NCBI RefSeq assembly: GCF_030691015.1
Contig: NZ_JAUYFF010000002.1
Coordinates: 124,001 to 188,000 of the forward strand
Source: Sulfuricurvum sp.
GTDB lineage: Bacteria; Campylobacterota; Campylobacteria; Campylobacterales; Sulfurimonadaceae
Length of the DNA stretch: 64,000 nt
Reading direction: 5' to 3'
Numbering within the stretch: position 1 is the stretch's first letter; every line of letters starts with the position of its first letter. Shown in pieces: positions 32,171-52,425 of the stretch. The position numbers and the translations under genes are program-made. Below the pieces are notes generated by a model. That model was not told the origin of the DNA. It saw only the letters and a program-made list of their open reading frames with translations, and ran no database searches.

Positions 32171-33859
32171 TTATGAAGTCGTATCTATATCGGCAGATAT
32201 TGAATCCTCTGAACCGTTTACTACTTCTATTCTATTTCTTCCGTTTGCTTTTGCACTATAGAGTGCTTGGTCGGCACGTTCGATCACCGTTTTAAAGGAT
32301 TCCCCCTCTAAAAGGAGGGTCGCTCCCAGACTCGCCGTTATGGAGGGGATAGATTCAAAAACGATCTCACTGACACTGCGGCGGATATGCTCGGAAATCG
32401 AGATAAGCTGGCTTTTTTTAGCCGTATTGATCAAAAGTATAAACTCTTCACCCCCCCATCGGATAAGGGTATCATCATTACGGATCGAATTTTGGATACT
32501 TTCGGCAACCTGTTTGAGTACGTCATCTCCAATACCGTGACCGTAGGTGTCGTTGATCTTTTTGAAATAATCCAAATCGATCATGATGATCCCTAATGAG
32601 GTGATATTTTGACGGTTCTCATCATAATAATCGTAGAAATATTGACGATTGAGGGCACCGGTGAGCGGATCATGGTAGGCTTTATTTTTTAGGAAAAGCT
32701 CTCTCAGGAGAGACTGGCTGATATCGTTTAACGTAATAATATAACGATCACTGACGAGTTCTTTGACCGCGAGGCTAAAAAAACGTTTCTCGTTTGAGGG
32801 TGATTTCATCGCTACGATCCGTTTGGACTTTTCCAAGGCCAGTATCTCGTGAATCCACATTTTCCCCTCGATGGAAGAGGGGGTAAAGGTGAGATCGGTT
32901 TGTAAAAAACGGCCGCAGATACACGAGTCATGCTGTAAAAAGTCTTCCAATGAGGCAACGGCAAAAAAATCGAAAAAAGGCTGATTGGCATAGATGATAG
33001 AGCTGTTTTCGGTGACGTATACGATGTTCTCTTGAGCATCAAGAATGGATTGAATGTAGAGTGCTTGTTTGGCAAGTTTCTCTTCATTTTGTTTTTGGTG
33101 ACTGATATCGTGTTGGACACCGATAAAGTATTTTAGTTTGTTGTTGGTATCAAACATCGGGGTAATGTTGAGAAGATTATGAAATAGTTTTCCCTCTTTC
33201 GTGAAGTTGCGAAGTTCGACTTCACAGGACTTAGCATTTTTAAGAGCTTCATAAACAGCACCGAGTGCAGGTTGCTGCGGTTCAGGTTCACGCAAAAAAC
33301 GGCAGTTACGCCCTAGTGCATCCTCAGCACTGTACCCTGTTGTTTCAGTAAAGGCACGGTTGACGTAGATGAGTGGATTATCAGGAAGTGAAGGATCGGT
33401 AATCGTAATACCGGTATCGACGACATCGACGAGATGTTTGAAAAGCGCCGCCTCATCGTAAGCATTTTTTCGATCGGTGACATCACTGAAAAATAGCAGT
33501 GCGATCGGATCTTCTCCCTCTTCGGCAATAAGTGAGCCGTTTATATCGGCCCATTTGAGCGTCCCGTCGCTTGATCTGATCCCGACGAGTTGATCAACAA
33601 GGTTTTGATGGGAATGAAGAAGTTTTTGTATCGGATAGTCGTTGATGCTTAAGGGTTCGAGCTTTTCATCGGTAAAATTCCATACCGGATCGGCTGCATT
33701 TTTCCCGATAATTTGATCCAACGGCAGCCCGAGAATCTCAGATACGGCTTTATTGGCATACAAAATAGTTGTATCGCACCGATGGATCACAACCCCCTCA
33801 TTGAGGCGATCGAGGAGGGATAAAAAAGAGATGCCGTAATGGTTTATTAGCTGTTGCAT
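32171..33859 (-). CDS. PAS-LOV-PAS-GGDEF diguanylate cyclase
   Basis: A 562-residue cytoplasmic sensor cyclase. Domain order is PAS (about 5-130), LOV (135-255), PAS (265-390) and GGDEF (395-550). The LOV domain has the photoactive-cysteine motif GRNCRFLR (C186), NPLIYVNRAFTETTGYS before it, LRNFTKEGKLFHNLLNITP after it and the flavin glutamine in GVQHD (Q249). The cyclase domain has WGGEEF with an RxxD inhibitory site (RNDD) five residues before it, so it is likely active and product-inhibited. Blue light probably adjusts cyclic-di-GMP; that is inferred from the motifs. Confidence 0.88.
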   Translation of the reverse strand: MQQLINHYGISFLSLLDRLNEGVVIHRCDTTILYANKAVSEILGLPLDQIIGKNAADPVWNFTDEKLEPLSINDYPIQKLLHSHQNLVDQLVGIRSSDGTLKWADINGSLIAEEGEDPIALLFFSDVTDRKNAYDEAALFKHLVDVVDTGITITDPSLPDNPLIYVNRAFTETTGYSAEDALGRNCRFLREPEPQQPALGAVYEALKNAKSCEVELRNFTKEGKLFHNLLNITPMFDTNNKLKYFIGVQHDISHQKQNEEKLAKQALYIQSILDAQENIVYVTENSSIIYANQPFFDFFAVASLEDFLQHDSCICGRFLQTDLTFTPSSIEGKMWIHEILALEKSKRIVAMKSPSNEKRFFSLAVKELVSDRYIITLNDISQSLLRELFLKNKAYHDPLTGALNRQYFYDYYDENRQNITSLGIIMIDLDYFKKINDTYGHGIGDDVLKQVAESIQNSIRNDDTLIRWGGEEFILLINTAKKSQLISISEHIRRSVSEIVFESIPSITASLGATLLLEGESFKTVIERADQALYSAKANGRNRIEVVNGSEDSISADIDTTS

Positions 33860-39505: not shown

Positions 39506-40768
39506 ATGATAAATAAAACAATAGTTGAACGTATTTTGTTGGTGGATGATAGTAAAACATTGGCAAAGTTGATCAGTTTAAAAGTAAAAAGTGAATTGAA
39601 AATAGAGATAGATGTGGCGTATTCGCTCTCAGAAGCAGAGCTTTTTAGTAAAAAATATAGCTATACCTTAGCGATTCTTGATCTCAATCTTCCCGATGCT
39701 CCCAATGGGGAAGTGGTTGATGTAATGCTCAAAAAAAACATCCCCTCCATCGTTTTGACGGGGAGTGTCGATAAAGAGTTTCGTAAAGTGATGCTTAAAA
39801 AAGATATTATCGATTACATTTATAAGGGGGGAATCCATGATATCGACTACCTAATCGATATTATAAAAAGACTCCTCAAAAATCGTCACCATAAAGTGAT
39901 GGTGGTGGACGATTCATCGGTTTTTCGAAATCAGATGAAAAAAATGGTGGGAAATCTCTTTTTTCAAGTGTATGCACTCGCTCATGGAGAAGAGGCTCTC
40001 TTGATTTTGGAAGAGAATCCCGATATTAAAATCATTATCACCGATTACAATATGCCGGTGATGGACGGACTGGAACTTACCAAAGCGGTTCGTAAAAAGT
40101 ATACAAAAAATCAACTCTCTATTTTTGTCCTCTCCTCGACGGAAGACTCTGATGTATCCGCTATGTTTCTTAAACAAGGGGCAAACGATTTTATCAACAA
40201 ACCGTTCAGTAAAGAGGAGTTTTCGTGTCGGTTGAACAATGCGATCGAAGCGTTGGAGAATATCGATACGATTACCCATTACTCCAGCCGCGATTTTTTG
40301 ACCGGATTGTACAATCGGCGCCACTTTTTTACGGTGATGGAACCCTATTTCGTAGAAGCGGTCAATCGAGATGAAGAGTTTATGACGGCGATGATCGATA
40401 TTGATAATTTTAAAAGTATCAATGAAAGTTACGGACACGATATTGGAGATCAGATGATCATTCACGTTTCTGAACTACTTCGCTCAAACGTACAGTATCA
40501 AGATGTCGTTTCACGTTTTACAGGAGATGAATTTTGTCTTGTCTTAAAAGAAACGACCCGTGAAAAATCGATTGAAATTTTAGAACGTATTCGACAAAGA
40601 ATAGCATTGACCCCTCTTGTACTTGCATCGGGAGAAGAGGTGTTTTTGACAGTTTCTATCGGGGCGGCGTTGGAACATGATAATTCTTTAAACGATACGA
40701 TGAGCGAAGCCGATGCACAGATGCATCATGCTAAAACTACCGGAAAAAATAAGGTATGTTCGGTCTAA
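39506..40768 (+). CDS. REC-REC-GGDEF response regulator with altered active site
   Basis: A 420-residue soluble protein with two receiver domains and a GGDEF domain. REC1 (about 8-125) has LVDDSK and LAILDLNLPD; REC2 (130-245) has MVVDDSS and IIITDYNMPVMDG, so both keep the phosphoacceptor Asp. The cyclase motif reads TGDEF instead of GGDEF, and the RxxD position reads QYQD, so it lacks the normal product-inhibition site and may have weak or no activity. It sits between the PilJ-type cyclase and a convergent REC-PAS-GGDEF gene. Confidence 0.88.
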   Translation: MINKTIVERILLVDDSKTLAKLISLKVKSELKIEIDVAYSLSEAELFSKKYSYTLAILDLNLPDAPNGEVVDVMLKKNIPSIVLTGSVDKEFRKVMLKKDIIDYIYKGGIHDIDYLIDIIKRLLKNRHHKVMVVDDSSVFRNQMKKMVGNLFFQVYALAHGEEALLILEENPDIKIIITDYNMPVMDGLELTKAVRKKYTKNQLSIFVLSSTEDSDVSAMFLKQGANDFINKPFSKEEFSCRLNNAIEALENIDTITHYSSRDFLTGLYNRRHFFTVMEPYFVEAVNRDEEFMTAMIDIDNFKSINESYGHDIGDQMIIHVSELLRSNVQYQDVVSRFTGDEFCLVLKETTREKSIEILERIRQRIALTPLVLASGEEVFLTVSIGAALEHDNSLNDTMSEADAQMHHAKTTGKNKVCSV

Positions 40769-40770
40769 AT

Positions 40771-42081
40771 TCAAACGGCAGCTTGGGGTAAGAAAAAAGT
40801 AAACTGTTGACGTCCTGCCTCTTTAGAGGTGTACATAGCGACATCGGCATGATGGAGAAGCGATTCAACGGTTTGTCCGTCTTGGGGAAAAATACTGATC
40901 CCGATACTGCATGCGCTGAAAATCTCTTTTTCTTGGATGAGAAAAGGGGCTTCGAAAAGTTTCAATATTTTTTCGGCTACGGTCGTAAAATGGCTTTTTG
41001 ATACTCCGTCATCGATGAGAAGGACAAATTCATCTCCTCCGTTACGTGCGATCGTATCTCCTTTACGGGTCATTGTTCGTATCCGTTTGGCTACCTGAAT
41101 CAAAAGCTGGTCACCGATCAAATGCCCTAACGTATCATTAACCTCTTTGAAATGGTCTAAGTCAATAAAAAAGATTGCGAACTCTCCGCCGGAACGTGTT
41201 TTTCGCTCAATAGCGTGATCAATTCGATCGGCAAGAAGACGGCGGTTAGGTAAATGAGTCAACGAGTCATGCATGGAAATATGGGTAAGCTTTTTTGTTT
41301 TGTGAAGTAATTTATTTTGGATATCGAGATAGTTACTGATATCGTGGCGAATTTCAAGGTAGGCTATGACTATTCCATCGGCATCAAATATTGGTCGAGC
41401 AGCAACGTCAATATGGTGTTTTTTCCCTTTTTTATCGGTATGCACATGGCGTTGAGTAGAGGGTTTTTTCGTTTTATAAACATGCTCTATCGGACAGAGA
41501 GGGGAACCTTCTGCACAGGCACCGCTTGTATTATTAGATATTTTATAACATTTGGGAAGTAGTGCATTGACATCTTCTCCCCCTAGCTCTTTTGCCGCTT
41601 TGTTCATCATACTGACACTGAAATCAAGTTCAATGTACATGATAGGATCGGGTATTTCATCGATGATCGTCTGCATCATCGTATGTGAGCGTACCAGCGA
41701 TTTCTCGAGATTCAACACGCGAGCCACTTTTTCAAAAGCTTGGAGTAACAAGTGTGGATCGGTCGGTTTTAAAATATAATCATCGACATGCAGAGTGATA
41801 CTTTTGAGGAGTAAATGGGTATCACTAAAGGCTGAGTTGATAATGATCGGCAGATTGGGAGATATTTCGCGCATCCGTGCAATCATTTCCAATCCACCCA
41901 TTTTAGGCATTTGAAGGTCGGTTAGGACGATGTCGGGGTGGGAAGTTTCAAAGAGAGCAAGCCCCTCTTCACCGTTGCGAGCGACAAAAATGGTTTTGAA
42001 ATATTCCTGAAATGCTCCGATAAAAGCATCAATCGTTGCGTCGTTATCTTCTACATAGAGAAGGGTGAATTTTTTAAGCAT
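40771..42081 (-). CDS. REC-PAS-GGDEF response regulator
   Basis: A 436-residue protein: receiver domain (about 1-120; LLYVEDNDATID, phosphoacceptor Asp in IVLTDLQMPKMGG, and the conserved Lys in ILKPTDPHLL), PAS domain (about 130-255) and GGDEF domain (265-430). The last has NGGDEF and RxxD (RKGD). It is likely an active diguanylate cyclase switched by phosphorylation. The start overlaps the end of the CheB/CheR-kinase gene, so that kinase is the obvious candidate phosphodonor. Confidence 0.9.
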   Translation of the reverse strand: MLKKFTLLYVEDNDATIDAFIGAFQEYFKTIFVARNGEEGLALFETSHPDIVLTDLQMPKMGGLEMIARMREISPNLPIIINSAFSDTHLLLKSITLHVDDYILKPTDPHLLLQAFEKVARVLNLEKSLVRSHTMMQTIIDEIPDPIMYIELDFSVSMMNKAAKELGGEDVNALLPKCYKISNNTSGACAEGSPLCPIEHVYKTKKPSTQRHVHTDKKGKKHHIDVAARPIFDADGIVIAYLEIRHDISNYLDIQNKLLHKTKKLTHISMHDSLTHLPNRRLLADRIDHAIERKTRSGGEFAIFFIDLDHFKEVNDTLGHLIGDQLLIQVAKRIRTMTRKGDTIARNGGDEFVLLIDDGVSKSHFTTVAEKILKLFEAPFLIQEKEIFSACSIGISIFPQDGQTVESLLHHADVAMYTSKEAGRQQFTFFLPQAAV

Positions 42082-45000
42082 ACGGTACCGTGCGTAAAGA
42101 AATTTTTGTCATCATCCCACCTTCAAACGGCAGCATCTGGATTGATCCTCCCATACTGTTTTCTATAATCATTTTTGACATATACAATCCGATTCCTGTC
42201 CCCTCTTTTTTCTCTTTAGTCGTAAAATAGGGTTCAAATACCCTTGCAATTACCTCTGTAGATGCCCCTCCACCGTTATCGGTGATAAGAATATTGATGA
42301 TCTCAGCTTCTTGTTCAAAGGTTATTTTTATGCTCCCCTCCGGGGTATTGTTTTTGATTAACGCATCTTTTGAATTGTTGAAAATATTGAGTAATACCTG
42401 TGCAAATTCATTTTCAAATCCATGAATCTGCGCATCATTCTGATGGTCATTTTGAATGGTGATGCCGTGATGATCAAAGGTGTCTTTGACAAAAAAGATT
42501 GTTTTTTCAATCACATCGTGGAGCGAGAAAATCTTTTTCGATTTGTTGGGACTGAAAAAATCTCTAAAATCATCGATGGTGGAGGACATGTGCTGAATGT
42601 TCTTTTGAGACTCTTCGACAAAGGTGTTAAACGAGCTCTCATCGATACTATGGTTTTCGAATTTTTTTTGTATTCCGAAAAGATTTAAGGCAAGGGTATT
42701 GAGCGGTTGACGCCATTGGTGGGCGATATTACCAATCATCTCTCCCATGCTGGCGAGCTTGGATTGCTGGAACATCAGCTCTTGGTTGCGGATTATGTCG
42801 GTTTTGTCGGTAAAGCTTATGATGACGCCGTAATCGTCGTTGGAGAGATTGATCCGTTTGATTTGGAACCAGTATATCCGGTGATCGATGGTCAAGTCAT
42901 ACTGAACTTCGTTGGTGTTTTGTACGACACTTTTAATGTTTTCAAAAAGATTCGGTATCGGAAAATGTTCATGGATAATGATTTCACTGAGATTGATCCG
43001 GTTGGTATAATTGATCTCAAAAAACTTCTCAACCCCTTTGGTATGGAGGAAAAGATCGAGATTTTTGTCCAAGATCAACACGTCGGTATTAATGACCTCT
43101 ACCACTTTATTCAAGGCTTCGTTGACAAAAGCGAGCTCATTATTCTTGTGCTCGAACTCATCATTAACGGTACGTAACTCTTCATTGGTACTTTGAAGCT
43201 CCTCATTTGAGGTTTCCAGCTCTTCATTCGTAGATTGTAATTCTTCATTCGTGGACTGCAACTCTTCGTTGGTACTTTGGAGTTCTTCGTTGGATGTTTC
43301 GAGCTCTTCTATGGTAATTTGAAGCCGCTCTTTGAGGGCGGAGAGTTCGTTTTCGAGGATATTGAAATCATACCCGTCTACGGTTTGGGGCTGATAGGTG
43401 AGAAGCGGTGAACTCTCTTTTTCATTGATATCATCAAAGGTGATAAAAAAACTGTTTTCCGAGAGCTTGTTGCGCCCCAACGGAAAGACAGTGATGATTA
43501 CGTAGTTGCGTTCATCTGCAAGAGGGAGAATTCGGATTTTTTTAGAAGCGACAACTTGTTCGTTTCGGATCGCTTCACTGAGTGTTGCCCGTAGATCCAA
43601 ACGTAAAAAATCAGATGTCTGCCGATAGACATCATTGGTGACAAGCCCTTGCGGATTGGAGATGTATTTATTCTCACCCTTGAAAAATAAAATAGTACCG
43701 TTGGTATCCACGACAATCCCGTTAACGGCGAAAAAAGAGGTGACTGCGGCGTTGATCGAGCTATTGACATCCAGACTGTTAACTTCATCCCGTAATTTTT
43801 TCGATCCCCGTTTGAACTCTTTTTTTTGAAAATAGGCAAGGGCTTCGATATCGACAACTCCGGTGTCGTTGGATTTACGATAAATTTTATATTTGTTATC
43901 GATGATTGAAAAGAGATTGGTCAATGTGCCGATTGTTTCAGAGGAACCTAAAAACATGAGCCCCTGATAGCGCAGTGCGTAATAAAAAATACTTTGTACC
44001 CGTTGTTGAAGGTCGGGATTAAAATAGATGAGGAGATTGCGGCAGCTGACAAGATCAAGATTTAAAAACGGAGGGTCTTTAATCACATCGTGTTTGGAGA
44101 AGACGATCATGTCCCGTATCGCTTTGGTGGGGGTATAGCGGTGATTTTTTTCGACAAAATAGAGTTTAATCAACTCAGGGTCGATGTGGCCCATTTCCTC
44201 TTCACTAAAACTTCGGCTTCGAGCTTCATCGATTGCCTCTTCACTGACATCGGTGGCAAAAATAGTCACTTTTTTAGTGAGCTCCATTTTTTTAAGGAGT
44301 TCGGTGATGACAATAGCGATGGAGTAGGCTTCGTCTCCGGTAGCACACCCCGCAACCCATATTCGGACCGTATTGTCGAGTTTGCTGATGAGCATTTTTT
44401 CCAAATGGACATCGATTGCGGTAAATGCCTCTTTATCACGAAACAAGGAAGTGACGATGATGAGGAGCTCTTTTTTCAGATTCAGTATTTCAGCCGGAGA
44501 GCGTTGCAACAAAGCGATGTATTCGTCCACACTTTCCGATTTAGTCTCCGTGATTCTACGCTCAAGACGGCGATGAATGGTCGCCTCTTTGTAGTCGCTG
44601 AAATCAACTTCCCCTTTTTGGTTGAGTAGGCTGAAAACTTTGTCAATGTTGTCCAAGACATCAAAATGACGATCAAAATAGGTGGGATCGTCGATGGCGT
44701 AGATAATCCCTTGTGCTAGGAGTTCAGGAGGGAGTACCGCATCGACGGCTTGGGTATCGATAGCGGCTTTCGGCATTGAAAAATATTTCGCTTTTTCATT
44801 TTGGGCGAGGGCAATTCCGCCGCTTTGTTTAATCGCTACAATCCCCTCGGCTCCGTCACTTCCCGTACCGCTTAAGATAATGCCGATTGCTTTTTCTTTC
44901 TTCTCTAAGGCGAGTGATTTAAAAAAGCGGTTGACCGAGGGTTTAGGGTAGGGTTTTAGGGGTGGAACCATGAGAAAAAATTGGCTATTCTCGATAACAA

Positions 45001-45277
45001 GGTCAAAATTAGGGGGGCAAAAATAGATAATATTGCCCAACGGCTCCATAGTATCGGTAATCTCAATGATAGGGATTTTGGAATATTTTTGGAGCAGCGA
45101 TCCCAACATGGTTGGTTGTTTGGGGTCGAGATGCTGTGTAATGACATATGAAATACTCTCGGAAGGTTCAATATTTTGGATAAATTTTAAGAGGGCTTCA
45201 AATCCTCCCGCACTTGCACCGATTCCGACAATGGTTAAACTTTTATACGCATCGGTGGGACGTTTCTTTTTTGCCAT
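42074..45277 (-). CDS. CheB-CheR-PAS-histidine kinase fusion
   Basis: A 1067-residue protein. The CheB methylesterase domain (about 10-200) shows the Ser in IGASAGGFEAL, the His in TQHLDPKQP and the Asp in SGTGSDGAEG. The CheR methyltransferase domain (about 210-480) has WVAGCATGDEAYS. A coiled coil of repeated TNEELQS units (about 650-720), a PAS domain and a histidine kinase follow, with H-box GNIAHQWRQPLN, N-box LLNIFNNSKDAL and GTGIGLYMSK. No receiver domain is present. It overlaps the REC-PAS-GGDEF gene by eight bases and follows the winged-helix-LOV gene after four, making a three-gene leftward operon. Confidence 0.9.
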   Translation of the reverse strand: MAKKKRPTDAYKSLTIVGIGASAGGFEALLKFIQNIEPSESISYVITQHLDPKQPTMLGSLLQKYSKIPIIEITDTMEPLGNIIYFCPPNFDLVIENSQFFLMVPPLKPYPKPSVNRFFKSLALEKKEKAIGIILSGTGSDGAEGIVAIKQSGGIALAQNEKAKYFSMPKAAIDTQAVDAVLPPELLAQGIIYAIDDPTYFDRHFDVLDNIDKVFSLLNQKGEVDFSDYKEATIHRRLERRITETKSESVDEYIALLQRSPAEILNLKKELLIIVTSLFRDKEAFTAIDVHLEKMLISKLDNTVRIWVAGCATGDEAYSIAIVITELLKKMELTKKVTIFATDVSEEAIDEARSRSFSEEEMGHIDPELIKLYFVEKNHRYTPTKAIRDMIVFSKHDVIKDPPFLNLDLVSCRNLLIYFNPDLQQRVQSIFYYALRYQGLMFLGSSETIGTLTNLFSIIDNKYKIYRKSNDTGVVDIEALAYFQKKEFKRGSKKLRDEVNSLDVNSSINAAVTSFFAVNGIVVDTNGTILFFKGENKYISNPQGLVTNDVYRQTSDFLRLDLRATLSEAIRNEQVVASKKIRILPLADERNYVIITVFPLGRNKLSENSFFITFDDINEKESSPLLTYQPQTVDGYDFNILENELSALKERLQITIEELETSNEELQSTNEELQSTNEELQSTNEELETSNEELQSTNEELRTVNDEFEHKNNELAFVNEALNKVVEVINTDVLILDKNLDLFLHTKGVEKFFEINYTNRINLSEIIIHEHFPIPNLFENIKSVVQNTNEVQYDLTIDHRIYWFQIKRINLSNDDYGVIISFTDKTDIIRNQELMFQQSKLASMGEMIGNIAHQWRQPLNTLALNLFGIQKKFENHSIDESSFNTFVEESQKNIQHMSSTIDDFRDFFSPNKSKKIFSLHDVIEKTIFFVKDTFDHHGITIQNDHQNDAQIHGFENEFAQVLLNIFNNSKDALIKNNTPEGSIKITFEQEAEIINILITDNGGGASTEVIARVFEPYFTTKEKKEGTGIGLYMSKMIIENSMGGSIQMLPFEGGMMTKISLRTVPYA

Positions 45278-45281
45278 AGGG

Positions 45282-46001
45282 TTAGACCATCCCTTTTATC
45301 TGCTGTATCAATTGTTGAATTGCGGTAACATCTTTTTGTACCCCGAGATAATATTTTAGCTTTTGTGTTTTTTTATCGAAGATAGGGCTGATCGTCACTT
45401 CGTTGTAGATAAGCTTTCCCGATTTGTGATAATTGCGAAGGGTGACGGTGACATCTTTTTGGGCATTCATAGCTTGGCGTATCTCTTCAAGTGCCGACTG
45501 ATCACGATCATCCCCCTGTAAAAAACGGCAATTTCTTCCGATGACCTCTTCGGGTAAATATCCAAACGCGTCTGCAAAGGCGTGATTGATGTAAATGACA
45601 GGGTTGTCGTTTTGGTTGGGATCGGATATCGTGATGCCGTTTTTGGCTTGATCGAGAATCTCAATCAAATGATCGGTAAATAGAGGATGGCTCTCACGAT
45701 TTTTTTTCAGCATATAGCTTCCGCCGTAATAGTTGATGATCGAAAGACAGGGGAGACGTTTGCGCAAATTACTGATTAAGTTACGGACATTTCTCGGTTT
45801 ATACTCATTTTCAAAGTTCTCCCATATATGAAAAAATATGTCAATACTGCTGATTGGCTTATTGTAATTGGTAATGAGGAGTTTCAAAACTTTTGTCATG
45901 TTAGATGTTAATGAGACGATTTCATTATGCAATTTTACAGTTTCAGTAGTGCTATCCCAATAGCATCGGTCGCAAAGCTTAATTATGTGATGAGTATTCA
46001 T
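45282..46001 (-). CDS. Winged-helix DNA-binding protein with C-terminal LOV photosensor
   Basis: A 239-residue protein. The first 100 residues resemble an OmpR/PhoB-type winged helix (VSLTSNMTKVLKLLITNYNKPISSIDIFFHIWE ... NVRNLISNLRKRL ... YYGGSYML). The rest is a LOV domain with the photoactive cysteine in GRNCRFLQGDDRDQ (Cys at residue 164 of the longer TTG-started form, 158 here), LRNYHKSGKLIYNEVTISP and the flavin glutamine in GVQKDVT. It is likely a blue-light-responsive transcription factor. The ATG at 46001 is used here; a TTG at 46019 is an alternative. It heads the operon with the CheB/CheR-kinase. Confidence 0.83.
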   Translation of the reverse strand: MNTHHIIKLCDRCYWDSTTETVKLHNEIVSLTSNMTKVLKLLITNYNKPISSIDIFFHIWENFENEYKPRNVRNLISNLRKRLPCLSIINYYGGSYMLKKNRESHPLFTDHLIEILDQAKNGITISDPNQNDNPVIYINHAFADAFGYLPEEVIGRNCRFLQGDDRDQSALEEIRQAMNAQKDVTVTLRNYHKSGKLIYNEVTISPIFDKKTQKLKYYLGVQKDVTAIQQLIQQIKGMV

Positions 46002-46082
46002 GGTGGCTATTGTAATCAAAAAGTGTCTTCAAAGTGTCTTTTTTATCCAATAATCTTCATAAATACCCTTTTTATATTCGAA

Positions 46083-46111
46083 TTGAATATTGGTGGTGAA
46101 CACGTTATAAT
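46083..46111 (+). promoter_or_regulatory. Sigma-70-like promoter of the binding-protein gene
   Basis: TTGAAT (46083-46088), 17-bp spacer, TATAAT (46106-46111); an AAAGGAG ribosome site follows at 46116-46122 before the ATG at 46129. Confidence 0.7.
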
Positions 46112-46128
46112 CTTAAAAGGAGTATATA

Positions 46129-47043
46129 ATGATTAAATTTACAAAATTATTTATTTTATTATTATCGCTTACGGGAGCAGCCATGCTCTATGCAGAACCA
46201 AAAACTGTTGCCTTTGCCCAAGATACAATGGGAAATGATTTTCGTAAAGCGCAAGTGTATGAGGTACGTGATGCAGCGGCCAAACATTCTGAATTGACAT
46301 TTGTTTACTCGGATGCCAAAGGGCAAACCTCATTGCTTATCCGTCATATCAACGGCTTTATCGATGCGAAAGTCGATTTGATCGTTGTGGGAACCAATGA
46401 TGAAAAAGCGGTCGTTCCGGTGATTCTCAAGGCAGTGAAAAGCAAAATTGCGGTGATCATCCTTGATCGCGGTATTCAAGGGGATGGGTATACCACTTTT
46501 ATTAACTCTAACAATATCAAAATCGGAGAGATGGGGGCAAAATACATCGCTGAGCGCTTAAGAGGAAAAGGGAAAGTTCTCCTTTTTGAAGGGTTGCAAA
46601 AAGCCGATGTTACGAAATTGCGTTCCAAAGGGTTTATGGATGAGATCGCTAAACACAAGGGGATTCGTGTGATCAAACGAACGGGAAACTATCTTCGTAA
46701 AGATGCTATTTTGGAGATGGAGAAGCTGATTGCTTCAGGGGAAAAGGTGGACGCTATTTTTTCTGAGAGTGACAGCATGCTCAGTGGAGCACGCTCAGCG
46801 ATGCTCCGTCATACCATAGATCCCTCATCCATTATTACTATCGGGTGTGATTATACCTCTGAAGCGCGTGATGCTATCCGTAAAGGGACTCAGAGCGGCT
46901 CGGTTCTTTTTCCGTTGGGGGGAAAAAAAACGGTTGAGACCGCTTTGAAAATTTTTAAAGGGGAGAGCGTTCCCAAACATATAGTCATACCGGTAAAACT
47001 TATTACGAAAGAAAATGTTGAGAAAGAAGCCCCGATTTTTTAA
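46129..47043 (+). CDS. Periplasmic sugar-type binding protein coupled to a GGDEF-EAL receptor
   Basis: A 304-residue protein with a signal peptide (KLFILLLSLTGAAMLYA) and a type I periplasmic-binding fold of the RbsB/LuxP kind (VAFAQDTMGNDFRKAQVYEVRDAAAKH; VDLIVVGTNDEKAVVPVILKAVKSKIAVIILDRGI; VDAIFSESDSMLSGA). No permease or ATPase gene is nearby. The next gene, starting on the last base of this stop codon, is a membrane GGDEF-EAL protein, so this protein probably presents a ligand to that receptor, as LuxP does to LuxQ. Confidence 0.85.
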   Translation: MIKFTKLFILLLSLTGAAMLYAEPKTVAFAQDTMGNDFRKAQVYEVRDAAAKHSELTFVYSDAKGQTSLLIRHINGFIDAKVDLIVVGTNDEKAVVPVILKAVKSKIAVIILDRGIQGDGYTTFINSNNIKIGEMGAKYIAERLRGKGKVLLFEGLQKADVTKLRSKGFMDEIAKHKGIRVIKRTGNYLRKDAILEMEKLIASGEKVDAIFSESDSMLSGARSAMLRHTIDPSSIITIGCDYTSEARDAIRKGTQSGSVLFPLGGKKTVETALKIFKGESVPKHIVIPVKLITKENVEKEAPIF

Positions 47044-49505
47044 TGATAACAACACTCTTCAGGTTATTTAACCTTAAAACGAAACTAGCACTTATATTGG
47101 TCGCTTCAACGGCCGTGATGTTTCTTGTGTCAGGGGTCTATTTTGACTATTTTTTACGCGAAAATTTTGTTAAAACCGCCCATCAGAGAATCGAATATGC
47201 GTTTCATCGTCTGAAGGTCGATCTTGGCGGTGTGGAATCAGATCTGAAAAAAGGGATTGCTTTTATCAAAGATGACGAGTCGTTTCTCGCATCGGTCGAG
47301 CTTATAAATACCTATCAGGATAAAATGCATTACGATACCGTCTTATTGGATGAAGAAAAAAAGAGGCTCGCAGAAGAGCTACTCAATCGGGTGAAAATAT
47401 CGCTCAATAACGATATCGCTTTGTACGATGCCCATGAAGATCTTATAGCGTATGTTACGAAAAGAGCACATGGATATTACCTGACATTCGTCTCATTTGA
47501 AGAGGGAAAACCGGTATTTTACAGCCGTTATGAAAACGAGTATGACTATGTTAAACGCCCTCTCGGAGATTTGCCGGATAAACATATTTCGTATTACAAA
47601 TACAACGATCTTGTCAAGGGGGGTGTGATAACGTATCACCGATACCAAAACGATCTTGTTATCAAGTCCCATGAAAGCCTGTTTGTAAAAGACAGCAATC
47701 AAACTATCACCCATATCGAGATGTCAAGATATATATCAAAACCTTATTTTCAGGCATTATCCCGTGATTTAGGAATTGAAATCTGGAGTCAGAAAAATTC
47801 AAATTTGCGTTCCTTAAAAAAGGAAAAACTGACAATAATCGAAGAAGAGAATCGCTTTTTAGGTTCCGTAAGTATGGCAACGTTGGAAGGGGATATCGTT
47901 ATTTCTGCCGCATTGGATAAGTCATCTCTGGAAACAGCACTTCAGGAAAACAGAATAGCTTTTTTTACCCTCATTACGACACTGACTCTGCTGACACTTT
48001 TATTTTTGCAAAGACTTTTCAAACGGAGTATCGCTCAGCCTCTGAATTCGCTTATGAATCAGATCGAAAAGATTGAACGCCAAGACTACTCCGATATGCA
48101 GGTGATTCATACGGGTGATGAGCTTGAGAGTATTTCCAAAAATGTTAATCGCCTTGCATTAAGTGTCCAAGAGCGGGAGAATGCACTGATAGCATCTCAA
48201 AAAAAGCTTGAAGATCTCTCCAATACCGATCCGCTTACCAGCCTTCCGAACCGTCGATTGTTTAATACGATGGTACAGCACGGCATCGATATGGCGAGAC
48301 GTAACGGAGATAAATTCGGGATTATCTTTTTGGATCTGGACCAGTTTAAGCAGATCAATGATGCTCTTGGACATGATGTCGGGGATTTGCTGTTGCAGGC
48401 AGTTGCGGCACGATTGAGTAAGATACTTCGAAATGCGGACACGCTCGCACGGATCGGAGGAGATGAATTTAATATCCTCATCGAAGGGTTTTATGAGATT
48501 TCAGCCGTCGAGCCGATCGTGCAAAAAATCATGGATGCGTTTCAGCTCCCGTTTGCATGCGGAATCCATGAAATCCGTACAACGGCCAGTATCGGGGTAG
48601 CGTTCTTTCCGGATGATGGAGAAACGATTTCTGCATTGCTGAAAAATGCCGATCTGGCAATGTACCGCTCAAAAGATACCGGACGCAACCGCTATTGCTT
48701 TTTTACGGAGGAACTTGCCCATATTGTTGAAGATCGGACACAGAGACTTCATGCCCTTAAAACTGCGGTTGAGAGGGGAGATGAATTTACCCTTGTGTAT
48801 CAACCTAAAGTCTCTGCTTCAAGCGGAAAAATAGTGGCCGTTGAGGCATTGATTCGATGGAACAGTGCTCTTATCGGATGGGTGAGTCCTGATCGTTTTA
48901 TCCATTTGGCGGAAGAGACGGGGCTGATCATTCCGATCGGTTCATGGGTTTTGCAACAAGCGTGTGAAGATTTTATGCTATTGCGTCAAGAAGGGTATCT
49001 CCTCCCTTATTTTGCGTTCAATGTCTCGTCACTACAGCTGCAAAACAGTAAATTTTTTGACATTCTTTCTTCAATAATCGAACAAACACATATTGATCCG
49101 GAATGGATTGAAATAGAGATCACGGAGAGTTATCTCGCAACAAATGCGAGTGAAGCTTTTGCAACTTTGAGTAAACTGCGTGCTATAAAGATTAAAATTG
49201 CGATTGATGATTTCGGAACAGGCTACTCTTCTCTAAGCTATCTTAAAAAACTTCCCGTTGACCGGCTTAAAATTGATAAATCGTTCATTGACGATCTCCC
49301 GGGCTCTCTTGAGGGGATCGCGATTACACGTGCGATTATCGCATTGGCAAAAACATTCGGTCTCTCTGTTACTGCCGAGGGGGTAGAGAGCAAAGAACAA
49401 CTTGAATTTTTACAGCAAGAGGGGTGTGATGAAATACAGGGGTATTATTACGCGAAGCCTTTAAAAATAGAGGAGCTAAAGCAGTTTATGCTAAATCAAA
49501 AGTGA
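47043..49505 (+). CDS. Membrane sensor-HAMP-GGDEF-EAL protein
   Basis: An 820-residue receptor: first membrane segment (LALILVASTAVMFLVSGVYF), periplasmic sensor (about 40-295), second segment (AFFTLITTLTLLTLLFLQRLF), HAMP (about 325-375), GGDEF (about 390-545) and EAL (about 560-815). Both enzyme sites look complete: RIGGDEF with RxxD (RNAD); and EALIRW, ITESYL, DDFGTGYSS, KIDKSF and AEGVES. It can therefore make and break cyclic-di-GMP. It is translationally coupled to the upstream binding protein, whose ligand-bound form likely sets the balance. Confidence 0.92.
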   Translation: MITTLFRLFNLKTKLALILVASTAVMFLVSGVYFDYFLRENFVKTAHQRIEYAFHRLKVDLGGVESDLKKGIAFIKDDESFLASVELINTYQDKMHYDTVLLDEEKKRLAEELLNRVKISLNNDIALYDAHEDLIAYVTKRAHGYYLTFVSFEEGKPVFYSRYENEYDYVKRPLGDLPDKHISYYKYNDLVKGGVITYHRYQNDLVIKSHESLFVKDSNQTITHIEMSRYISKPYFQALSRDLGIEIWSQKNSNLRSLKKEKLTIIEEENRFLGSVSMATLEGDIVISAALDKSSLETALQENRIAFFTLITTLTLLTLLFLQRLFKRSIAQPLNSLMNQIEKIERQDYSDMQVIHTGDELESISKNVNRLALSVQERENALIASQKKLEDLSNTDPLTSLPNRRLFNTMVQHGIDMARRNGDKFGIIFLDLDQFKQINDALGHDVGDLLLQAVAARLSKILRNADTLARIGGDEFNILIEGFYEISAVEPIVQKIMDAFQLPFACGIHEIRTTASIGVAFFPDDGETISALLKNADLAMYRSKDTGRNRYCFFTEELAHIVEDRTQRLHALKTAVERGDEFTLVYQPKVSASSGKIVAVEALIRWNSALIGWVSPDRFIHLAEETGLIIPIGSWVLQQACEDFMLLRQEGYLLPYFAFNVSSLQLQNSKFFDILSSIIEQTHIDPEWIEIEITESYLATNASEAFATLSKLRAIKIKIAIDDFGTGYSSLSYLKKLPVDRLKIDKSFIDDLPGSLEGIAITRAIIALAKTFGLSVTAEGVESKEQLEFLQQEGCDEIQGYYYAKPLKIEELKQFMLNQK

Positions 49506-49605
49506 GAGTTTTAATCGATTTTACAGTTAATACGGATAGAATAAGATAGATACAGAGTGTCTATCTAATTAAGAAAAACAAATAATAATGATTTAGGATT
49601 ATTAA

Positions 49606-52425
49606 ATGACCGCTTATAGCTATTTAAAAAAATCATTACATGCCGTTATCCGTTTAGGTAATTTACTAGAAAATCGTATTTGCAATGCCGGTATGTCACC
49701 TAAACCGATACTGCGTCGATTGATGATCATTCTGTCGGTGATGGTTTTGGTATTGATCGTAAGTGCAGGGGTACTCATAGGGGAACAACACTCCCGTTAT
49801 TTAGAGGATATTGTTGTCGGCCAACTCAATGAGGTCTCGGAGGATTTTCAGGGGACGCTTGATCAGCAAGCTTCCGGATTGGCCATGGCGCTGCAACCTA
49901 TCGTCAGTAATAAAGCCGTGAAAGAAGCGCTTCGAGAAGGGGATAGTGAACGTCTTTTGAGGGATTGGGAACGTGTATTCGAGACGATGAAAAAAGAGAA
50001 TCATCTCACCCATTTTTATTTTTTAGATAAAAACAGAGTATGTCTGTTGAGGGTACATAATCCAGCCAAACGCGGGGATCTCATCAATAGATTCACCGCA
50101 CTAAAAGCCGAGTGGACCCATAAAGCGTCATCCGGTATTGAAATCGGCCCCTTAGGTACATTTACCCTGCGAGTGATACAGCCTGTGTTTGAGGGCGATA
50201 GATTGATAGGCTATGTAGAGCTCGGTAAAGAGATTGAGGATGTTCTCCAAAACCTTCATATTCAAAGCGGCAATGAGATTGCGGTGGTTATCCGAAAAGA
50301 GTATCTGAAGCGTCAGACATGGGAAGAAGGGATGCGTATGTTGGGGCGAAAGGCTGATTGGAATCAGCTCCCTAACGATGCCGTTATTTATACGTCGAAA
50401 GAGAGATTGACAAATGTTCTGAGTTTAATGGAACATCATCATGATATGGAGCGCTTATCCCATCAGGATATTAATCATGAAGTAGCTGAGGATAGTAAAA
50501 AATGGCGGGTTTCGATTATTCCCGTACGAGATGTTTCTGACAAAGAGATCGGCGATATGATTATTATGAAAGATATTGCTCATGAGAAATCGGAGCTGCT
50601 TGGTTTTATCACTGTTAATGCTTTGAGCGGAGTTATTTTAATAGGGGTGGTTTTAGGCTTTATCTTTTTGGTATTGCGCCGAACCGATAAAAATATTCGT
50701 CATCAACAAGCCAATCTGCTAGAAGCTGAAGAGCGTTTTGAACAACTTGCCGAGCAGAGTCGAACCTTTGTATGGGAGATTGATGCTCAAGGAATGTATA
50801 CCTATGTAAGCAATGCCGTAGAACAGGTGCTGGGATATCGAAGTGATCAGCTTGTCGGCCAAAAATATTTTTATGAGCTTTATCCGCAAGAGGGTAGAGA
50901 AGCATGTAGAAGAAAAATCTTTGAAATTTTTGAGCGCCATGAATCGTATGAAAAGATTCAAAACCTTGCGGTTAAGCATGATGGGCGCACGGTTTGGCTC
51001 TCTAGCAATGCAATCGCTATGGTAAGCCATGAGGGACTTTTACTCGGTTACCGAGGGAGTGATACCGATATCAGTGAGCATAAGCTCTCCGAAGAAAAAA
51101 TCAATTTATTGGCTTTTTTTGATCAGCTCACGGGACTTCCCAACCGGATTTTGTTACTGGATCGATTGAAGCAAGCTCTGATGGGAAGTTCACGCAGCGG
51201 CAATTACGGGGCATTATTATTTATTGATCTGGATAATTTTAAAACGCTCAACGATACGCTAGGACATGATATGGGGGATAAACTTTTGAAACAGGCTGCC
51301 CGTCGCATCAGCCTGTGTGTTCGTGAAGGAGATACCGTATCACGATTCGGCGGGGATGAATTTGTGGTGATTCTATCCGGACTCAGCAGCAATGAAACCG
51401 ATGCGGCAACTGCGAGTGAAGGAGTTGCAGAAAAAATTCTTGCCGCCTTGAACCAACCTTATCTTTTAGGTGAGATTCAACATCGTAGCAGTGCGAGTAT
51501 CGGGGTGACACTTTACAAAAGTGACGATACTTCTATCGACGATCTGATGAAACAGGCAGATTTGGCAATGTATAAATCTAAAGAAGCGGGGCGTAACGGT
51601 TTGAGCTTTTTTGATCCGAATATGGAATCTGCCTTGAGGGAGCGTGCCGGGTTAGAGGAGGATCTTCGCAGAGGGATCGAGGAGAAACAATTTATCCTCT
51701 ATTATCAGTCCCAAGTTGACACTCACGGATTGATCAGCGGTGTCGAAGCTCTTGTACGTTGGATGCATCCGCAGCGCGGTATGGTATCTCCGGCCGATTT
51801 TATTCCGGTAGCCGAAGAGACGGCTCTTATTCTTCCTCTCGGTGATTGGATTTTAAATACGGCGTGTGAACAGTTGGCAGTATGGTCACATCTTCCCGAA
51901 ATGGAAACGATGAGCATTGCGGTCAATGTCAGCGCGAAACAGTTCAGCCAAAGCAATTTTGTATCTCAGGTATTGTTAGCACTAAAGCAAAGCGGTGCCA
52001 ATGCAAAGCGATTGAAGCTGGAGCTTACCGAGAGTATTTTGGTACAAAACGTGGAAGATGTAATTGAAAAAATGGCGGCATTAAAAAATGCAGGGGTAGG
52101 ATTCTCTCTGGATGATTTCGGTACCGGCTACTCGTCGCTGTCGTATCTGAAACGTCTCCCTCTGGATCAGTTAAAAATTGACCAAAGTTTCGTTCGTGAT
52201 CTTTTAGTAGACCCCAACGATGCTATTATCTGCAAATCAACTATAGCATTGGCGGAGAGTATGGGGCTTTCGGTCATTGCAGAGGGGGTAGAGACACTAC
52301 AGCAACGTAATGCCCTCTCCGAAATAGGGTGCAATGCGTATCAGGGCTACTGGTTTAGCCGCCCGTTGCCGTTAGCGGAGTTTGAAGCACTTTACAAGAT
52401 CACAATGACCAAGGAAAAAGCATGA
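49606..52425 (+). CDS. Cache-like sensor-PAS-GGDEF-EAL protein
   Basis: A 939-residue receptor. A membrane segment (LMIILSVMVLVLIVSAGVLIG) precedes a Cache-like periplasmic sensor (about 65-330; FYFLDKNRVCLLRVHNPAKRGD ... FTLRVIQPVFEGDRLIGYVELG). A second segment (ALSGVILIGVVLGFIFLVL), PAS (about 375-495), GGDEF (510-665; RFGGDEF, RxxD site REGD) and EAL (680-930; EALVRW, DDFGTGYSS, KIDQSF, AEGVET) follow. All catalytic motifs are intact. AGGA precedes the start. It overlaps the next receptor gene by an ATGA, and the two sensors look related. Confidence 0.92.
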   Translation: MTAYSYLKKSLHAVIRLGNLLENRICNAGMSPKPILRRLMIILSVMVLVLIVSAGVLIGEQHSRYLEDIVVGQLNEVSEDFQGTLDQQASGLAMALQPIVSNKAVKEALREGDSERLLRDWERVFETMKKENHLTHFYFLDKNRVCLLRVHNPAKRGDLINRFTALKAEWTHKASSGIEIGPLGTFTLRVIQPVFEGDRLIGYVELGKEIEDVLQNLHIQSGNEIAVVIRKEYLKRQTWEEGMRMLGRKADWNQLPNDAVIYTSKERLTNVLSLMEHHHDMERLSHQDINHEVAEDSKKWRVSIIPVRDVSDKEIGDMIIMKDIAHEKSELLGFITVNALSGVILIGVVLGFIFLVLRRTDKNIRHQQANLLEAEERFEQLAEQSRTFVWEIDAQGMYTYVSNAVEQVLGYRSDQLVGQKYFYELYPQEGREACRRKIFEIFERHESYEKIQNLAVKHDGRTVWLSSNAIAMVSHEGLLLGYRGSDTDISEHKLSEEKINLLAFFDQLTGLPNRILLLDRLKQALMGSSRSGNYGALLFIDLDNFKTLNDTLGHDMGDKLLKQAARRISLCVREGDTVSRFGGDEFVVILSGLSSNETDAATASEGVAEKILAALNQPYLLGEIQHRSSASIGVTLYKSDDTSIDDLMKQADLAMYKSKEAGRNGLSFFDPNMESALRERAGLEEDLRRGIEEKQFILYYQSQVDTHGLISGVEALVRWMHPQRGMVSPADFIPVAEETALILPLGDWILNTACEQLAVWSHLPEMETMSIAVNVSAKQFSQSNFVSQVLLALKQSGANAKRLKLELTESILVQNVEDVIEKMAALKNAGVGFSLDDFGTGYSSLSYLKRLPLDQLKIDQSFVRDLLVDPNDAIICKSTIALAESMGLSVIAEGVETLQQRNALSEIGCNAYQGYWFSRPLPLAEFEALYKITMTKEKA

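Follow-up and report, generated by a model that had tools for sequence, protein, structure and literature searches.

The locus and its genes

The window is the whole 64,000-nucleotide stretch of DNA analysed here and comes from Sulfuricurvum sp., a chemolithotroph of the Campylobacterota. Its minus strand encodes a 239-residue protein, referred to as wHTH-LOV, which is composed of an OmpR/PhoB-type winged helix followed by a LOV domain. Two genes of the same operon lie downstream. A predicted operator and a predicted -10 box lie upstream. The features are listed below, all on the minus strand.

45282..46001, minus strand: wHTH-LOV regulator gene, 239 aa, ATG at 46001 (purifying selection, family alignment)
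45702..45989, minus strand: OmpR/PhoB-type winged helix, aa 5-100 (Pfam Trans_reg_C; AlphaFold2; PDB folds KdpE, PhoB and YycF)
45318..45668, minus strand: LOV domain, aa 112-228 (PAS_9, YtvA_fam, PDB LOV matches; model)
45528..45530, minus strand: codon of the photoactive cysteine, Cys158 in GRNCRFLQ (motif; lost in three relatives)
45336..45338, minus strand: codon of the LOV glutamine, Gln222 in GVQKD (motif in the sequence)
42074..45277, minus strand: co-operonic CheB-CheR-histidine kinase, 1067 aa (Pfam; starts 4 bp past the wHTH-LOV stop codon)
40771..42081, minus strand: co-operonic receiver-PAS-GGDEF diguanylate cyclase, 436 aa (Pfam; conserved next gene; 8 bp overlap with the kinase gene)
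46021..46038, minus strand: direct repeat of 11 bp, GACACTT-TGAA-GACACTT, the predicted operator (footprint shared by 21 genomes with the gene first; a related site in 8 displaced operons)
46009..46014, minus strand: predicted -10 box TACAAT, 6 bp past the repeat and 7 nt ahead of the ATG (conserved spacing)

The reading frame is considered a real gene because dN/dS against close relatives is 0.07-0.08 and full-length homologues are found in about 30 genomes. A sequence-only reading of this DNA had placed the gene at 45282-46001 in a Campylobacterota chemolithotroph, and both the coordinates and the host agree with it.

Domain content and predicted structure

The winged helix is built of four N-terminal strands, three helices and a beta-hairpin wing, with the recognition helix at about aa 69-82. 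A linker helix (aa 106-117) leads into the LOV domain, and a C-terminal one (aa 226-238) follows it. Pfam assigns Trans_reg_C to aa 29-97 with an E-value of 2.2e-7, which passes the curated cut-off, and PAS_9 to aa 121-227 (E 2.4e-21). Trans_reg_C is matched by 26 of 28 family members, and the fold is that of the OmpR/PhoB group. The top NCBIfam match of the protein is the LOV part of the blue-light receptor YtvA (E 9.9e-44), and NifL reaches only 2.1e-15. PDB sequence matches of the C-terminal half are LOV domains.

Ten residues define a LOV domain under the criterion taken from Dietler et al., namely nine flavin-pocket/GXNCRFLQ positions and the active-site Gln. The window protein has all ten: G155, N157, C158, R159, F160, L161, Q162, N190, N200 and Q222. 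The domain is of the LOV type in both sequence and fold, and LOV outscores other PAS domains. A Response_reg (receiver) domain is found by Pfam in 0 of 28 family members, so the protein is not a two-component response regulator. It is also not of the EL222 type, in which LOV comes first and is followed by a LuxR-type HTH, since its order is the reverse and its DNA-binding fold is a different one.

AlphaFold2 folds the N-terminal domain alone as a PhoB/KdpE-type winged helix (pLDDT 89.8, pTM 0.83). Compared with the PDB using VIA-align, this model matches KdpE with Z 15.1 and rmsd 1.6 over 97 residues. The DNA-binding domains of YycF (Z 15.0) and of PhoB on pho-box DNA (Z 14.6) follow closely. 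The full-length AlphaFold2 model, made with 28 family members, contains two domains including the LOV domain (pLDDT 85.8). Its pTM is 0.53, and the mutual orientation of the two domains is therefore not fixed by the model. Structural matches of the LOV part are short LOV proteins and YF1.

An OmpR-like winged helix ahead of a complete LOV domain, with the motifs GRNCRFLQG (Cys158) and GVQKD (Gln222), was the core of the sequence-only reading. Pfam, NCBIfam, the PDB and AlphaFold2 concur on this architecture. That reading was to be given up if the N-terminal part lacked a winged-helix fold, and the AlphaFold2 model has the fold.

Operon and neighbouring genes

The order wHTH-LOV, kinase, cyclase is repeated in about a dozen relatives. 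In other relatives, a kinase and/or GGDEF-EAL gene leads the operon and the wHTH-LOV gene is last. Of the 151 genomes, 14 have a kinase ortholog, and 13 of those 14 also have wHTH-LOV.

Just nine of the 151 genomes have phytochromes. In five of them wHTH-LOV is encoded as well, and there the two kinds of gene are always adjacent. The genes that adjoin wHTH-LOV in L054, L055, L056, L061 and L064 are those of heme oxygenase and/or bacteriophytochromes (PAS_2-GAF-PHY). No phytochrome match was found in the genome of the window itself. Some of the neighbouring bacteriophytochromes carry HD-GYP or GGDEF outputs. Together with wHTH-LOV, the neighbours in these five relatives would make up a multi-colour light-sensing cluster in Campylobacterota.

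The window contains a second LOV protein, a PAS-LOV-PAS-GGDEF diguanylate cyclase of 562 aa (32171-33859, minus strand). It has the motifs GRNCRFL and GVQHD and is a clear second to wHTH-LOV among the LOV matches of the genome. In the region 39506-52425, both strands carry many genes for GGDEF/EAL and receiver proteins. A gene for a Peripla_BP_4 protein (46129-47043) is divergent from the wHTH-LOV gene. Joint control of this binding-protein gene at 46129 was considered and dropped because the neighbour is not conserved in relatives.

Family members and residue variants

Full-length homologues of wHTH-LOV are found in 28 of 151 genomes, which represent three genera of its bacterial family. A sample across the phylum adds two more genomes, which belong to the same order but to different families. 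Identity across the homologues of these approximately 30 genomes ranges from 40 to 93%, and the nearest named Sulfuricurvum relatives are 93% and 88% identical to the window protein. Beyond Campylobacterota, the search covered close relatives together with plasmid and phage records. A Mesorhizobium plasmid match with 77% coverage was rejected; it has no winged helix before the LOV domain and resembles a LOV histidine kinase. Phage matches were also rejected, as they cover the LOV half alone.

The family tree is made up of two clades with support of 100/100. The clade of the window protein has 20 members, in which Cys and Gln are mostly intact. The sister clade has 10 members (L029-L037, without L028, plus L041). 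Here the LOV Gln is replaced by Tyr in seven members and by His in three, and Glu or Asp often stands in for the second pocket asparagine. In L021 and L029, an in-frame stop lies at the glutamine position or shortly beyond it.

The photoactive Cys is kept in 27 of 30 members. In L022, L028 and L037 it is lost (Ser, Pro, Ile), while the remainder of the protein is kept. L022 also has Glu in place of the Gln, and two bacteriophytochrome genes adjoin it.

Dietler et al. (PMC9098866) describe approximately 350 natural LOV proteins that lack the Gln, and they seldom found a large aromatic residue in its place. The Tyr-bearing members are therefore unusual. Loss of the Cys in three relatives and replacement of the Gln by Tyr or His in ten suggest that light sensing is perhaps dispensable in some members. 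A tentative reading, held with less than even confidence, is that one DNA-control scaffold serves two chemistries. One would be the Cys-Gln light switch. The other, in the Tyr/His clade, would use altered photochemistry (tyrosine-flavin electron transfer, for example) or respond to a non-light signal, with a related operator kept. The sister clade is a natural experiment on the need for the LOV glutamine.

Predicted operator and promoter

The regions upstream of the homologues are otherwise unlike one another. They share GACACTT-N4-GACACTT and, roughly 6 bp further on, a -10 box resembling TACAAT, which is followed after 6-9 nt by the ATG. The window sequence that contains both predicted half-sites is GACACTTTGAAGACACTT. 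Where wHTH-LOV is the first gene, the double repeat is present with at most two mismatches in 20 of 21 genomes, and the remaining genome has four mismatches. Shuffled upstream regions match the double repeat as well in 2 of 6,300 cases. L058 and L059 have a third, weaker copy of the repeat between the double repeat and the -10 box.

In displaced operons with enough sequence, GACACTT-N6-TANNAT precedes the first operon gene in all eight, with one mismatch or none; shuffles are as good in 11 of 2,400 cases. The promoter-proximal half-site is clear in these operons. L064 and L070 also have a clear upstream half-site, which has degenerated in the remaining six.

A pattern search of the window's own genome finds one exact copy of the operator, at the wHTH-LOV promoter. 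Near-matches with up to two mismatches number 13, against 8 in the control. This is about the control level, and a wider regulon in this genome was dropped as a candidate. The action of the protein would centre on a single autoregulated operon, with no large regulon. Further exact or near copies of the operator, in G016, G117, G095 and C4 of the own genome, were set aside, as none of them lies ahead of this operon. A second operator-like site, located before a membrane GGDEF protein in L109 (G142:C83:40539-40568), is a possible further target.

Among the 151 genomes, 17 contain the combined pattern, and 15 of the 17 have the gene; the association (Fisher p 2e-11) is partly expected, because these promoters were used to build the pattern. 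The operator site was not found in G093, the sole genome that has the kinase-cyclase pair and lacks wHTH-LOV.

A consensus promoter scan found no -35/-10 pair at the wHTH-LOV promoter, which has a -10 box without a -35 hexamer. The distance from the -10 box to the ATG is very short (7 nt, and similar in relatives), so a leaderless mRNA is likely.

The PhoB box is composed of two 11-bp direct repeats, each with seven conserved and four less conserved bases (PMC2648988). The predicted wHTH-LOV operator resembles it and has the same 7+4 bp anatomy. The 11-bp direct repeat is conserved at the promoter, and wHTH-LOV may bind it head to tail, as OmpR/PhoB proteins do on direct repeats of about 10-11 bp. 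The footprint shows that the operon is regulated, and wHTH-LOV is the presumed binder of the repeat.

Proposed mechanism and alternative explanations

The preferred reading, with a probability of roughly 0.75, is that wHTH-LOV is a blue-light one-component regulator with PhoB-like DNA binding that autoregulates one c-di-GMP signalling operon, most likely by class II activation. The reading is built on sequence comparison and structural models. From these, wHTH-LOV is expected to bind flavin, to undergo a photocycle and to bind DNA in a light-dependent manner. Blue light would form an adduct between Cys158 and the flavin, and through Gln222 this change would reach the sheet of the LOV domain and the helices beside it. 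Pairing of the LOV domains would then be altered, as in EL222 and aureochrome, and two winged helices may sit head to tail on GACACTT-N4-GACACTT. The repeat would stand in for the missing -35 box and lead to PhoB-like (class II) activation of the protein's own operon. The operon carries the kinase and the diguanylate cyclase, and the circuit would tune c-di-GMP signalling to light.

PhoB-like activation is judged likeliest because the repeat replaces the absent -35 box beside the -10 box. The sign of the response, light activation or dark binding, is the least certain step of the model. The same protein and operator could serve the opposite logic, namely repression of the operon by its own product. 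The protein could occupy the site in the dark and leave it in the light, or light-induced binding could block the polymerase. With 6 bp between its end and the -10 box, the repeat lies within the polymerase footprint, where a bound protein could block transcription. Negative autoregulation is common among bacterial regulators. A -10 box without a -35 hexamer, however, is in keeping with a pho-type promoter that needs an activator, and repression is rather unlikely, though the strongest of the alternatives.

The LOV domain could instead be a flavin-based redox or oxygen sensor, with the operon tuned to the level of oxidant or oxygen. The PAS/LOV fold does include redox sensors such as NifL, and the three Cys-less relatives have kept the rest of the protein. 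Nevertheless, the window protein retains both Cys and Gln, most family members retain the Cys, and the NCBIfam score for the YtvA photoreceptor LOV is far above that for NifL. A role in light sensing is further favoured over one in redox sensing because phytochrome genes adjoin wHTH-LOV in five relatives. A redox sensor is accordingly regarded as improbable.

Least probable, by a little, is that a different OmpR-family regulator uses the repeat as its operator while wHTH-LOV acts elsewhere in the genome. Binding of wHTH-LOV to the repeat is a prediction from the footprint, and G016 and G117 match the combined pattern without having the gene. Against this, the site stays with the operon despite changed gene order and is nearly restricted to genomes with wHTH-LOV. 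Its exact form occurs once in the own genome, and in the genome that has the kinase-cyclase pair without wHTH-LOV, the pair is not preceded by the site.

On the light-regulator reading, c-di-GMP signalling may be under light control in sulfur-oxidising Campylobacterota, bacteria not usually regarded as responsive to light. Provided that the light switch works, wHTH-LOV would combine very small size with a short promoter and a natural operator, predicted to span 22 bp. Its mechanism would then be directly testable and of use in optogenetics.

Comparison with known systems

The sequence-only reading had called both the domain order and the type of DNA-binding domain unusual. The first part needs qualifying, since a DNA-binder-first order has precedents in HTH+LOV proteins, aureochromes and FG214. 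Losi's 2014 review counts eight bacterial proteins in HTH+LOV or LOV+HTH order. The type of DNA-binding domain does look unusual. The PhoB/OmpR-type winged helix is the fold with which very many response regulators bind DNA, yet no OmpR/PhoB-LOV protein was found in the literature searched, although a prior listing in the LOV survey of Glantz et al. 2016 is possible. None of its papers mentions a LOV domain together with a winged helix.

EL222 of Erythrobacter and related LOV-HTH regulators are one-protein light-controlled transcription factors, as is proposed for wHTH-LOV, and their LOV domain likewise has Cys and Gln and turns up among the PDB sequence matches. They have the LOV domain first and a LuxR-type HTH, whereas wHTH-LOV has a PhoB-type winged helix first and a predicted direct-repeat target.

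Aureochromes are bZIP-LOV proteins of stramenopile algae and share the order of DNA-binding domain first and LOV last. Their DNA affinity is raised by light-driven LOV pairing (PMC4721966). The DNA-binding half is a eukaryotic bZIP, not a winged helix, and has no common ancestry with that of wHTH-LOV.

FG214, an HTH-PAS protein of Fimbriimonas, is also a one-component regulator with the DNA binder first and a PAS-fold sensor last. A monomer-to-dimer release mechanism has been proposed for it (PMC13060918). It differs in having a LuxR-type HTH and a redox-sensing heme, and it lacks a LOV photoreceptor.

NmPAL, the Nakamurella LOV receptor, likewise has a C-terminal LOV domain behind its effector (PMC9098866; structure 6hmj), but PAL binds RNA and not DNA.

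PhoB, OmpR and KdpE share with wHTH-LOV the winged-helix fold (Z about 15), the 11-bp direct-repeat site and its 7+4 layout. Unlike them, wHTH-LOV has neither a receiver domain nor a phosphorylation site and carries a LOV sensor behind the DNA binder. What is new here is a likely operator, predicted from the alignment of upstream regions and conserved at the start of the wHTH-LOV operon in relatives.
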